From the NCBI GenBank assembly GCA_018716805.1, contig DVJL01000027.1:1-64000 (forward strand): a stretch of 64,000 bases of DNA. The letters run 5' to 3'. This DNA comes from Candidatus Faecivicinus avistercoris. Lineage in GTDB: Bacteria > Bacillota > Clostridia > Christensenellales > Aristaeellaceae. Below are positions 44,925 through 48,941 of this stretch, one piece after another. The notes beneath the pieces were generated by a model. That model saw nothing but the letters and a program-made list of their open reading frames with translations. It made no database searches and was not told where the DNA came from. The position numbers and the translations under genes were made by a program. The number at the start of each line of letters is the position of its first letter. Within the stretch, counting starts at the first letter, position 1.

Positions 44925-44956
44925 AAATATCCCGCCGCATCTGTTCGCGGCGGGAT
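44925..44956 (-). terminator. terminator of the lipid operon
   Basis: ATCCCGCCGC/GCGGCGGGAT 10-bp stem; reverse strand followed by ATTTTGC. Confidence 0.75.
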
Positions 44957-45022
44957 GTTTTCTGGCGGACGATTTGATGCTTCTGCGCAGCACCTGTACT
45001 GAAGCGGGAGCTTTCAGGACAT

Positions 45023-46144
45023 TCAGCTCTCTGAGTCCAGCGAGTGGATAAAATCGCTGAGCAACTTGGCGGTATCAGCGGCGGCATCGCCGGGCGCATA
45101 GGCGCGCTGGCAGGCGCGCATCCGCTCGATGGCCTCGCCGCCATTGGCCGTGAGGCGGGCGACGCAGTCCGGCAGGCATTCCGGATCCGGGCAGTATTCC
45201 GCCAGACCGTGGGAGACGAGCATCTGCGGGTTGTGCAGCTCCTGTCCCGCGAGCTGGCCGAACAGTATGACCGGCTTGTTCAGCGCGACGGCCTCCATGA
45301 CGCTGTTTGGGCTGGCGCGCATGATGAGCAGATCGGAATCGAGCATGACGTTCTGAATATCGTTGACGAAGCCCATCGCGTTCAGCCGGCCGTGGTAGCG
45401 CCGGCCGAGGACGCTGCGCAATTTCTTGCGAAGCGCCTTGTTGCGCCCGCAGATCACGTTGACGTGCGCATTCGTGCCGGAAAGCAGCTCGCGGGCGACG
45501 GCGCGAATGGTGCCGGAGCCTTCCGAGCCGCTCATCACGGTGATGACCGGCTGGGCATGGGCCATCGGCCGCTCCTCCGGCCGGGCCAGCCCCATGAACC
45601 GGCGGCGCACCGGAAATCCCACTTTGCGCACCCGGGCGGGATCGACGCCGTGGGAGATCGTGCAGTCGTATGCCTCCTGCGACGGCGCGAGCACCAGCGC
45701 GATGCGCGGGTCGAACCAGTAGTCGGCGATGTCGATCAGGTCGGCTTCGTGGGCGACGAGCGGTATGGAGAGGTTCATCTCCTCGAGCAGATCAATGACG
45801 CTGCCCAGGAATATCGGATGCACGGAGAGGATGCAGTCCGGGCGGAACTCATGGATCAGCTCTTCAAACCGGTGGCGGATCATGACCGCGATGGCGCGCT
45901 GCACCGGCTGGCGAAGCGCCATGCCGGCGGCATAGTTGAGCGCCCACGCCTGCTTCGGCAGCCGGGTGATCGGGCCGTAGGTCTTTTCGGCGCAGACCTT
46001 CTGCACTTTGGACATCAGGTCGAAGCCGTCGATCGTGCGCACCTCGATGTCCGGGTAGGCTTCGAGGCGCTCCATCAGGGAATCCGAGATGCTCTTGTGT
46101 CCGTGGCCGGTGTACACGGCCGTGATAATCAGGAGTCGGCGCAT
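45023..46144 (-). CDS. MGDG synthase/UgtP-like diacylglycerol glycosyltransferase
   Basis: LLIITAVYTGHGHKSISDSLMERL, SVHPIFLG, MSGSEGSGTIRAVARELL, SPNSVMEAVALNKPVILFG. Confidence 0.85.
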   Translation of the reverse strand: MRRLLIITAVYTGHGHKSISDSLMERLEAYPDIEVRTIDGFDLMSKVQKVCAEKTYGPITRLPKQAWALNYAAGMALRQPVQRAIAVMIRHRFEELIHEFRPDCILSVHPIFLGSVIDLLEEMNLSIPLVAHEADLIDIADYWFDPRIALVLAPSQEAYDCTISHGVDPARVRKVGFPVRRRFMGLARPEERPMAHAQPVITVMSGSEGSGTIRAVARELLSGTNAHVNVICGRNKALRKKLRSVLGRRYHGRLNAMGFVNDIQNVMLDSDLLIMRASPNSVMEAVALNKPVILFGQLAGQELHNPQMLVSHGLAEYCPDPECLPDCVARLTANGGEAIERMRACQRAYAPGDAAADTAKLLSDFIHSLDSES

Positions 46145-47289
46145 TTTCTCTTCTCAATCCTCTGAATGATTTTCATGATCCTCGGTCGGTTGTAGCGCTG
46201 GATGACCAGCGAGACCAGGTTGCCAATGATGTACAGAATCATCGCCAGTACGCCGAGCTCATCCATCAATATGGCGAACAGCGGGCTGAGCAGGATCAGA
46301 ACCCAGTGGACGAATTCTGCCGAGCACGTCTCGACCACGAGCTTGCGCAGGTGGTCCGGGTCGCGCAGCAGGTTGCCCTGCTTCGGGAATGCGCGGCGGA
46401 TGTACTTGCTCATGTCCGGCGTGCGGTTTTTCCACCATTGGATGCCGATCTTTTCATAGATTTTGCCGTCCTTTTCCCATGCAAAGCTGCGGAAGGGGAA
46501 GCGGTCGGGATGAAACCACTTCCGCGGCAGCTTTTCGCCCAGAAAGAACGCCGGCACGCCGAGCGTTCCCACGATCGAGGCGAAGCGCAGGAACAGATAG
46601 ATCGGCTTGGGCAGCACGTCGCGCAAAAACGATTCGCCCGACGTGAACATCAGCAGAAAGAACGACAGCATCAGCAGCAGGTACATCACCATGACCTGCC
46701 AGTCGATCGGCCGCATGGCCGCGCCGGGGACGTGCGCGGGGTTGCGCAGCGCGCGGATGTAGAACACCGCGTAGAGCAGAAGCGACACCGCGTGCGTGCC
46801 CGCGAGCAGCGCGATCAGCACGTTTGCGGAATAGGCGGTGATGTCCGGGCTGAGCATCAGCGCGACCATCGTGGCGTACAGCACCACGGAGCTGGCCTTG
46901 CCGTACCAGCGCGCGTCGGCGATGACGCCCGTGCGCTTCATGTAGGCATAGCCGAGCGCCGCGAGGATGACCTCCTTGACGGCCAGAAAGATCAGCACCC
47001 AAAGCATCACCGGATAGCGGAACATCATCACGATACACAGCGCGGCCTGCGCCAGCTTGTCCGCCAGCGGGTCGAGCACGCGGCCGACGTTGCTCTCCAT
47101 GTGCAGTTTCCGCGCGAGGATGCCATCGAGCACGTCGGTCAGCCCCGTGGCGACCACGACGGCGGCCGACCAGTGGTACGCCTTTTTCGCGCAGTAGAGC
47201 CAGACGAACACCGGGATCATCAGGATCCGCAGGAGGCTCAGCGCGTTGGGGAGAGTTACGATGCGGTTTTCATACCTGTTCGCCTGCAT
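46129..47289 (-). CDS. CDP-alcohol phosphatidyltransferase (PgsA-like) fused to CrtO-like acyltransferase domain
   Basis: N-terminal DVLDGILARKLHMESNVGRVLDPLADK signature; last ~140 aa (about 46132-46560) EKLPRKWFHPDRFPFRSFAWEKDGKIYEK...VETCSAEFVHWV...GNLVSLVIQRYNRPRIMKIIQRIEKRK resembles S. aureus CrtO. Confidence 0.85.
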   Translation of the reverse strand: MQANRYENRIVTLPNALSLLRILMIPVFVWLYCAKKAYHWSAAVVVATGLTDVLDGILARKLHMESNVGRVLDPLADKLAQAALCIVMMFRYPVMLWVLIFLAVKEVILAALGYAYMKRTGVIADARWYGKASSVVLYATMVALMLSPDITAYSANVLIALLAGTHAVSLLLYAVFYIRALRNPAHVPGAAMRPIDWQVMVMYLLLMLSFFLLMFTSGESFLRDVLPKPIYLFLRFASIVGTLGVPAFFLGEKLPRKWFHPDRFPFRSFAWEKDGKIYEKIGIQWWKNRTPDMSKYIRRAFPKQGNLLRDPDHLRKLVVETCSAEFVHWVLILLSPLFAILMDELGVLAMILYIIGNLVSLVIQRYNRPRIMKIIQRIEKRKCADS

Positions 47290-47295
47290 AATCGC

Positions 47296-48153
47296 CTATC
47301 CTTTATCCTTTTTGTAAAACAGCAAACCCAGACAGTTGGGGCCGCAGTGGTTGGAGATGGTGCAGCCAGCGCGGGTGTGCAGCACCTCGCGAAACGCCAT
47401 ATGCCGGTCCACTTCGGCGCGCACCGCCTGATACAGCCCGTCCGAAACGCCGGAATCCGTGATGAACAGGCGGGAATCGTCGATCTCGTCGGGATTCGCA
47501 AGCCGGTCGGCGACGTATTTGCTCAGGCAATGCTCCAGCCGTCCGCGGTATTTTTTGCCCACGCCCATCACGCCCTCGCGCACTTCGATGCAGGGCTTGA
47601 GGCTGAGCAGGTTCGCGCCCAGCGCCGCCAGCGCACTGCAGCGGCCGCCCAGGCGAAGGTAATCCAGCGTGTCGACGACGAAGCTGACGTCCAGCCGCGC
47701 CTTCTTCGCCTCCATTGCGCGGAAGATCTCCTCCGCGCCGCAGCCGCGCCCGGCCATCCCCGCCGCGTCGAGCACGAGGTGCCCGATGCCGGTGGAGAGA
47801 TTCCGGCTGTCGACGACGAATACGTTTTCCATTTCCGACGCCGCGAGGCATGCGTTCTGGTAGCAGGCCGACATTTCGCTGCTGATCGTGAAGTGCACGA
47901 TGCCTTCGCACTGTGCGCGCATGGCTCCGAACAGCTGGCGGTAGTCCTCCACGTTGACCGCGGAGGTCGATGCGGTTTTTCCGCCGCGCGCGACATTTTC
48001 AAACAGGTCGTCCGGCGTGATATCCACGCCGTCGCGGTAAGACCGTCCGTTCATCGAGATGTACAGCGGCGCGATGGCGATGTTGTGCGCCGCAATCAGT
48101 TCCCGCGAGAGATCACAGGTGCTGTCGGCAGAGATCCTGACCTTGCCTTCCAA
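47296..48153 (-). CDS. DegV/FakB-family fatty-acid-binding protein
   Basis: RISADSTCDLSRELIAAHNIAIAPLYISMNGRSYRDGVDITPDDLFE; TTG start 48153 after GGGAGGG. Confidence 0.9.
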   Translation of the reverse strand: MEGKVRISADSTCDLSRELIAAHNIAIAPLYISMNGRSYRDGVDITPDDLFENVARGGKTASTSAVNVEDYRQLFGAMRAQCEGIVHFTISSEMSACYQNACLAASEMENVFVVDSRNLSTGIGHLVLDAAGMAGRGCGAEEIFRAMEAKKARLDVSFVVDTLDYLRLGGRCSALAALGANLLSLKPCIEVREGVMGVGKKYRGRLEHCLSKYVADRLANPDEIDDSRLFITDSGVSDGLYQAVRAEVDRHMAFREVLHTRAGCTISNHCGPNCLGLLFYKKDKG

Positions 48154-48262
48154 GCGCTTACCCTCCCATGTGCAAAACCCTGTCCCGGTCATGAAAATGA
48201 TAGGACAGAAACTTCAAGAAAGATTCTACAAGCCGCAGGCATTGCGGCAGGGCACTACTGCT

Positions 48263-48291
48263 ATTGTACACCAAAGCGACCGAAAAATCAA
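48263..48291 (-). promoter_or_regulatory. sigma-A promoter of the lipid operon
   Basis: Reverse strand TTGATT-17 nt-TACAAT. Confidence 0.6.
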
Positions 48292-48328: not shown

Positions 48329-48357
48329 TTGACGCCGGCCGGCGCGCGCCCTATAAT
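48329..48357 (+). promoter_or_regulatory. sigma-A promoter for NUDIX gene
   Basis: TTGACG-17 nt-TATAAT. Confidence 0.65.
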
Positions 48358-48377
48358 GGAGCTGGAGGTGCTGTGCT

Positions 48378-48941
48378 ATGAAGATCGAAGCGATTCTGGA
48401 TGCCTGCCGGCCCGATTGCGAACAGGAGCGGCAGGATCTGCGCCTGATGCGCCTTTACCTGAGCAAATTCGACGATCTGCTCCTGCGAACGAATGAGATG
48501 GCCCACTTCACGGCGTCTTCATGGATCGTCAGTCCCGACCGCGAGCGCGTGCTTATGGCCTATCACAACATCTATCAGAGCTGGTCGTGGACGGGCGGAC
48601 ATGCGGACGGCGACGGCGATCTGCTCGCCGTCGCCCTTCGCGAGGCGCGGGAGGAGACGGCGGTTCAGCGGGTCAGCCCCGTGCTGGAAAGGCCGCTCTC
48701 CGCGGAGATTCTGACCGTGCCGGCGCACTGGAAGCGGGGCGCGTATGTCGCTGCGCACCTGCATCTGAACGTCACCTACCTGCTCGAAGCCGACGACCGT
48801 CAGCCGCTGGCCGTCAAGCCGGACGAGAACAGCGACGTCCGGTGGTTTTCGCTCGACGAAGCCGTCGCCGCGAGCACAGAGCCGGAGATGCGCATCGTCT
48901 ATCAAAAGCTCAACGGCAAACTCCGGGCGCTGAGATCGTGA
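48378..48941 (+). CDS. NUDIX hydrolase
   Basis: GGHADGDGDLLAVALREAREETAVQ Nudix box. Confidence 0.9.
   Translation: MKIEAILDACRPDCEQERQDLRLMRLYLSKFDDLLLRTNEMAHFTASSWIVSPDRERVLMAYHNIYQSWSWTGGHADGDGDLLAVALREAREETAVQRVSPVLERPLSAEILTVPAHWKRGAYVAAHLHLNVTYLLEADDRQPLAVKPDENSDVRWFSLDEAVAASTEPEMRIVYQKLNGKLRALRS

Follow-up and report, generated by a model that had tools for sequence, protein, structure and literature searches.

A fused CDP-alcohol phosphatidyltransferase and CrtO domain in a candidate membrane-lipid operon of Candidatus Faecivicinus avistercoris

Introduction

In the synthesis of staphyloxanthin, CrtO esterifies a fatty acid onto the sugar of glycosyl-diaponeurosporenoate. Here, we analyze an operon that encodes a CrtO domain in a stretch of 64,000 nucleotides (hereafter, the window) from Candidatus Faecivicinus avistercoris, a member of the Clostridia (GCA_018716805.1, contig DVJL01000027.1, positions 1 to 64,000). 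Its three genes encode a DegV-family protein, a CDP-alcohol phosphatidyltransferase fused to the CrtO domain, and a glycosyltransferase (GT) of the GT28 family, related to monogalactosyldiacylglycerol (MGDG) synthase and UgtP.

The clostridial functional precedent for such a GT is provided by UgtA and UgtB of Clostridioides difficile (PMC11898633). A Listeria glycolipid carries a phosphatidyl group on its sugar, added by an enzyme that was reported to be unknown (review PMC3089915, 2011, citing Uchikawa 1986), and plant galactolipids are acylated on the head group by AGAP1 (PMC7956594). Thus, both of the chemistries that we propose below have precedent.

Results

A candidate cassette for an acylated glycosyl lipid

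The three genes lie on the minus strand and are closely coupled, with a 6-nt gap between the DegV and fusion genes and an overlap between the fusion and GT genes; the open reading frames are where the preliminary description of this DNA had placed them. All positions refer to the whole window. Profile searches of the middle protein matched its N-terminal half to the CDP-alcohol phosphatidyltransferases and its C-terminal region to CrtO (Table 1), as that description had anticipated. The CrtO match scores 102 bits against a cut-off of 27.3 and covers profile positions 1-123 of 123, and seven residues (E272, E320, E325, H328, Q364, R365 and R368) are invariant among 78 aligned sequences. The N-terminal domain carries the complete catalytic motif of its superfamily, D..DG..AR.{8}G...D...D. 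The GT exceeds the cut-offs of both PF06925 (E 3e-11, 44 bits) and PF04101 (E 7e-10, 39.7 bits), and its nearest solved structures are plant MGD1 (4wyi, E 9e-25) and a processive diacylglycerol glucosyltransferase (9wde, E 6e-15). It scores 105.5 bits against the UgtP equivalog NF010135, below the cut-off of 500.

We propose that the operon is a membrane-lipid cassette whose product is an acylated glycosyl lipid with no tie to carotenoids, the fused phosphatidyltransferase working on that lipid or on a partner of it; we hold the chances for and against this reading to be evenly divided. We infer the substrates, product and order of steps as follows. The GT28 enzyme, judged by its family, would add a sugar to diacylglycerol, and the CrtO domain would then esterify a fatty acid onto that sugar, by analogy with its action on glycosyl-diaponeurosporenoate. 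The fused phosphatidyltransferase, an extra cardiolipin-synthase-like paralogue, would use CDP-diacylglycerol as donor and transfer its phosphatidyl group to a hydroxyl of either the glycosyl lipid or a partner lipid, which is the least certain step. In the genus of the window, the fusion would couple the phosphatidyl-transfer and acylation steps, while the DegV protein, probably a general FakB-type fatty-acid carrier, may supply acyl groups that feed the acylation.

CrtO genes often lie beside glycosyltransferase genes

A scan of named genomes returned 389 relatives bearing the IQRYNRPR motif, from which the best 80 loci were retained. These come chiefly from uncultured Clostridia, including Christensenella-like and Oscillospiraceae genomes. 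A GT gene is directly adjacent to CrtO on the same strand (within 300 nt) at 45 of the 80 loci (37 GT28 and 8 GT2), and none of the loci has a GT neighbour on the opposite strand; one GT28 gene lies more than 1.5 kb away. PAP2-like genes are found 3′ of CrtO in most of 19 loci, on the same strand only, with the tested example falling below the Pfam cut-off. In a separate sample of the order and the phylum, where CrtO occurs in 70 of 396 and 15 of 399 genomes, respectively, the gene adjoins GT2, GT28, GT4 or PF01553 PlsC-type acyltransferase genes. A non-carotenoid, glycolipid-linked role of CrtO is well backed by these neighbourhood statistics, which uphold the earlier view that the domain probably has another substrate than carotenoids, and the GT adjacency points indirectly to a glycosylated substrate for the CrtO domain of the window.

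The same parts also occur unfused. Overlapping genes for a phosphatidyltransferase, CrtO and a GT28, arranged as in the window, are present at four Oscillospirales-type loci (L279, L281, L284 and L296), which fall into two lineages in the tree. The presence of these parts, unfused, in many gut bacteria suggests that the CrtO family mostly decorates ordinary membrane sugar-lipids.

Two further features of these neighbourhoods were observed. At L279 (6444-8495), right after the phosphatidyltransferase and CrtO genes, the GT28 forms a single protein with a diacylglycerol kinase (PF06925, PF04101 and PF00781), and L281 and L284 encode 683-aa homologues of this protein. A HAMP/HisKA sensor kinase gene recurs 5′ of CrtO at Oscillospiraceae-type loci (L266, L273, L276, L285, L289, L299 and L302), several of which have a response-regulator-like gene still further 5′; the kinase neighbours suggest that the lipid cassettes are regulated.

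Several observations weigh against the proposed cassette. No profiled neighbour accompanies CrtO at 25 of the 80 loci. DegV adjoins CrtO at just 5 of the 80, and in the phylum sample all 29 of the closest DegV relatives elsewhere have neither CrtO nor GT28 nearby. The AF2 model of the CrtO domain, made from 78 sequences, is confident and helical (pLDDT 91.6, pTM 0.84), and a comparison with solved structures gave no significant fold match (best E 4) and none by sequence. We know of no CrtO member with an activity outside staphyloxanthin-type pathways, and a search of the open-access literature returned no described role outside carotenoids; for want of such an activity and of a solved counterpart, "acyltransferase" is here a designation by family name. 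Lastly, members of the paralogue clade to which the fused phosphatidyltransferase belongs often stand alone in the order, in genomes that seem to be without a phospholipase D (PLD)-type cardiolipin synthase, and the usual job of this clade may therefore be cardiolipin synthesis.

The phosphatidyltransferase half

The last of these points bears on the alternative in which the phosphatidyltransferase half works as a cardiolipin synthase of the CDP-alcohol type, the phospholipid and glycolipid genes being co-expressed with no joint product and CrtO acylating something else or nothing. Besides the stand-alone relatives, it is favoured by the best NCBIfam model for the N-terminal domain being ClsA (NF053678, 90.6 bits). 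However, this match is far under the cut-off of 240, a PLD-type candidate of ~500 aa is present in each of the four genomes sampled from the window's genus, and the fusion to CrtO, together with the unfused trio in other lineages, implies a coupled role. We consider this alternative possible, if unlikely.

Part of the evidence comes from the rest of the genome. The preliminary description had called the fused domain PgsA. The fusion with CrtO stands, while the name proves imprecise, since the domain scores 76.5 bits against TIGR00560, below the cut-off of 109.1, and belongs in the tree to a separate, ClsA-like clade apart from canonical PgsA (97/96), with the versions found in the trio and beside PlsY. 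The four fusion N-terminal domains form one branch of this clade (99/97). A role for the fused domain as the phosphatidylglycerol synthase of the genome was considered and ruled out by a canonical PgsA on another contig (171.9 bits, over the TIGR00560 cut-off). The genome also encodes a two-domain PLD protein of 530 aa, probably a cardiolipin synthase. With PgsA and this PLD-type candidate both present, the genome does not depend on the fused enzyme for phosphatidylglycerol or cardiolipin, and the coexistence of both synthase types in the genus leaves room for another acceptor, which may be the glycolipid.

Elsewhere in the order, in another family, the same phosphatidyltransferase clade is found fused to a VTT (DedA-like) membrane domain, PF09335 (L033:5266-6522, genome G039). 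In the genome of the window itself (G000), the canonical PgsA gene (L050:4496-6157, contig C28) also has a DegV gene ~210 nt downstream on the same strand.

An acyltransferase position between phosphatidyltransferase and GT28

In a genome of the window's family (G930, L207:5145-7500), the genes run phosphatidyltransferase, PlsY, GT28, with PlsY (PF02660) in the position of CrtO. Thus, the CrtO slot is an acyltransferase slot at least once. In G221 and G950, of the same family, an unclassified protein of 250-257 aa stands between phosphatidyltransferase and GT28; its NH motif is PlsC-like, but an assignment to PlsC was rejected as no Pfam model matched.

The PlsY gene of G930, and the PlsC-type genes that adjoin CrtO at many loci of the order, argue for CrtO being a glycerolipid acyltransferase, which would do the job of PlsY or PlsC on the hydroxyl of a lyso-lipid or glycerol-phosphate acceptor rather than acylate a sugar. 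We regard this as improbable: at those loci PlsC and CrtO stand side by side and so are not simply interchangeable, the GTs beside CrtO belong to three unrelated families, as fits a glycosylated acceptor, and the sole established activity of the CrtO family is on a sugar hydroxyl.

Carotenoid synthases are missing from nearly all sampled CrtO genomes

The phytoene/squalene synthase family PF00494, which includes crtM, was absent from 79 of 80 CrtO-bearing genomes, including that of the window, which is 97% complete; the same search found the family in 7 of 14 control genomes. In the lone exception (G516), the PF00494 gene lies on the same contig as CrtO at a distance of ~590 kb. This branch of CrtO is therefore not carotenoid-linked. 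The preliminary description had allowed that carotenoid genes elsewhere in the genome might account for the domain, and no PF00494 synthase was found there. A staphyloxanthin-like part for the CrtO domain in the synthesis of carotenoid or other terpenoid glycosides, to which the family name and the significant PF18927 match would point, is very improbable given this absence and the MGDG-type GT partner, and the carotenoid role is already largely refuted.

Origin and spread of the fusion

A search of 250 genomes from the same family as the window found the fusion only in the window's genus, with two other full-length copies (G875, 92% identical to that of the window, and G806, 64%) and one in G857, where the contig stops within the gene; the congener G838 (80% complete) gave no match. 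No further phosphatidyltransferase-CrtO fusion was found in a set of 248 genomes from the order. The surroundings vary: G875 retains the order DegV, fusion, GT, a DegV gene upstream of the fusion was not found in G806, and the gene 5′ of the fusion in G857 is not DegV and resembles trmB by eye. In the sister genus (g384), CrtO is unfused, with ~200 aa that align with residues 194-384 of the fusion; an orthologous GT (64% identical) comes next, with a 16-nt overlap identical to that in the window. The gene 5′ of this CrtO resembles aspartate kinase.

The alignment indicates that the ~35-residue linker preceding the CrtO domain is part of the CrtO module, and the identical overlap that the phosphatidyltransferase gene joined the front of a pre-existing CrtO-GT pair. 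The fusion is real and recent, and the survey of relatives, which the preliminary description had proposed, shows that the gene order is conserved, with the fusion inside the genus and separate genes outside it. That the fusion is an artefact of assembly or annotation, as might be feared in a draft genome of 149 contigs, is practically inconceivable and already refuted, because independent assemblies carry it: the two full-length copies come from contigs of two further genomes, in which the GT overlaps as in the window. The model of the full-length fusion has a pLDDT of 75, its N-terminal half being too weak for claims on domain packing.

Two other candidate fusions were set aside. One in G672 was apparent only, arising from an over-long reading frame, and in genus g144 the partner proved to be CDGSH iron-sulphur domains, with no phosphatidyltransferase. 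The g144 proteins (L072:5981-7153, L073 and L074) are CrtO fused with two CDGSH iron-sulphur zinc-finger domains, and in a sister genome of these carriers (G346, L076) the CrtO and CDGSH genes are separate and adjacent.

The DegV protein

The DegV protein scores 215.7 bits against TIGR00762, over the cut-off, and 99.8 bits against the FakB1 equivalog NF038249, far below the cut-off of 350. It is one of six DegV paralogues in the genome, which has one FakA on another contig (PF13684, E 2.6e-86, 549-aa frame). Its longest reading frame opens at ATG 48192 (47296-48192), although the start is probably TTG 48153 to judge from a Shine-Dalgarno-like GGGAGGG seven bases upstream.

The preliminary description had the DegV protein supply the acyl groups. 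As a dedicated supplier it finds little support, given its scarcity beside CrtO, its closest relatives with neither CrtO nor GT28 nearby, and the failure to find a DegV gene upstream of the fusion in G806. Nevertheless, the five adjacent loci compare with ~0.36 expected if six copies were spread over a genome taken to have 2700 genes (P 3.5e-5), or four of 79 when the congener is removed (P 5e-4), both uncorrected for relatedness, and DegV lies beside CrtO in two genomes of another family in the order and phylum sample. The window DegV groups with three CrtO-adjacent ones in a tree of 15 rows; a CrtO-dedicated DegV clade, suggested by this small tree, was dropped in view of the 29 closest relatives, and in a wider control the subfamily is common and normally located elsewhere. 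Acyl supply by DegV/FakB is possible and is the weak part of our reading.

Signals and layout of the locus

The promoter that had been suggested upstream of the operon was recovered in a consensus scan (Table 1), which gave two promoter-like sites in the region against 0.8 expected from shuffling. For the suggested terminator (44925-44956), RNA folding confirmed the hairpin (44956-44929), which has a weak T tract, however, and was not among the matches of a terminator scan of the region. Beyond the operon, a NUDIX hydrolase gene (48329-48941, plus strand) is transcribed divergently, with a near-consensus promoter, TTGACG-17-TATAAT, directed away from the operon.

Table 1 Features of the operon and their positions in the window.
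Feature	Positions	Strand	Evidence or remark
Promoter-like site TTGATT-17-TACAAT	48263..48291	-	5′ of operon; consensus scan, 9/12 matches
DegV-family (FakB-like) protein, 285 aa from probable TTG start	47296..48153	-	PF02645, E 1e-60
Fusion protein, 386 aa: CDP-alcohol phosphatidyltransferase, transmembrane linker, CrtO domain	46129..47289	-	Pfam
CDP-alcohol phosphatidyltransferase domain, residues 12-159	46813..47256	-	PF01066, E 3.9e-33
Catalytic motif DVLDGILARKLHMESNVGRVLDPLAD, residues 52-77	47059..47136	-	Regular-expression match
CrtO domain, residues 255-377	46159..46527	-	PF18927, E 3.1e-29
GT28 glycosyltransferase, MGDG synthase/UgtP type, 373 aa	45023..46144	-	PF06925, PF04101
16-nt overlap of fusion and GT genes	46129..46144	-	ORF coordinates
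Terminator-like hairpin, weak T tract	44929..44956	-	RNA fold -22.9 kcal/mol, z -4.0

Discussion

Nearly all sampled CrtO genomes cannot make C30 or C40 carotenoids by way of PF00494 synthases, and many CrtO genes sit in glycolipid or phospholipid cassettes, which corrects a likely misannotation as carotenoid genes in gut Clostridia. The CrtO family, with a predicted helical fold that has no solved counterpart, is thereby nominated as a glycolipid acyltransferase, and the fused phosphatidyltransferase is a concrete candidate for an enzyme by which glycolipids acquire phosphatidyl groups. Lipids of this kind would shape the cell envelopes of bacteria that are common in the gut and for the most part uncultured. 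To our knowledge, a phosphatidyl-glycolipid is not known from the organism of the window.

In a stronger form of our proposal, the fusion would be bifunctional and place both a phosphatidyl group and a fatty acid on the sugar of glycosyl-diacylglycerol, giving an acylated, cardiolipin-like phosphatidyl-glycolipid. We think this distinctly doubtful. If true, the protein would be the founding example of the phosphatidyl-glycolipid synthase reported unknown in Listeria (PMC3089915) and the first CrtO shown active outside carotenoids.

Comparison with the known systems indicates what is shared and what is particular to this operon. AGAP1 likewise esterifies a fatty acid to the head group of a galactolipid, but belongs to a phospholipase family, acts by transacylation and is unrelated to CrtO. 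The Listeria phosphatidyl-glycolipid resembles our case purely as a candidate reaction, being a product that a glycolipid-linked CDP-alcohol phosphatidyltransferase could make. The DegV protein shares with FakB the PF02645 family and a FakA in the same genome, whereas it scores far below the FakB1 cut-off and has five paralogues. With PgsA and ClsA, the fused domain has PF01066 and an intact catalytic motif in common, but it lies under both cut-offs, in a clade separate from canonical PgsA, and is joined to CrtO. The GT has the PF06925 and PF04101 architecture of UgtP and MGDG synthase, although it falls below the UgtP cut-off and is co-transcribed with an acyltransferase-phosphatidyltransferase fusion. 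Finally, the CrtO domain is homologous over its full length to CrtO of staphyloxanthin synthesis, with the motifs ETC.AE..H and IQRYNRPR common to both, and in each case a member of this membrane acyltransferase family is encoded beside a glycosyltransferase. Here, however, there is no carotenoid synthase, the partner is a GT28 and not CrtQ, and the domain is fused to a phosphatidyltransferase.

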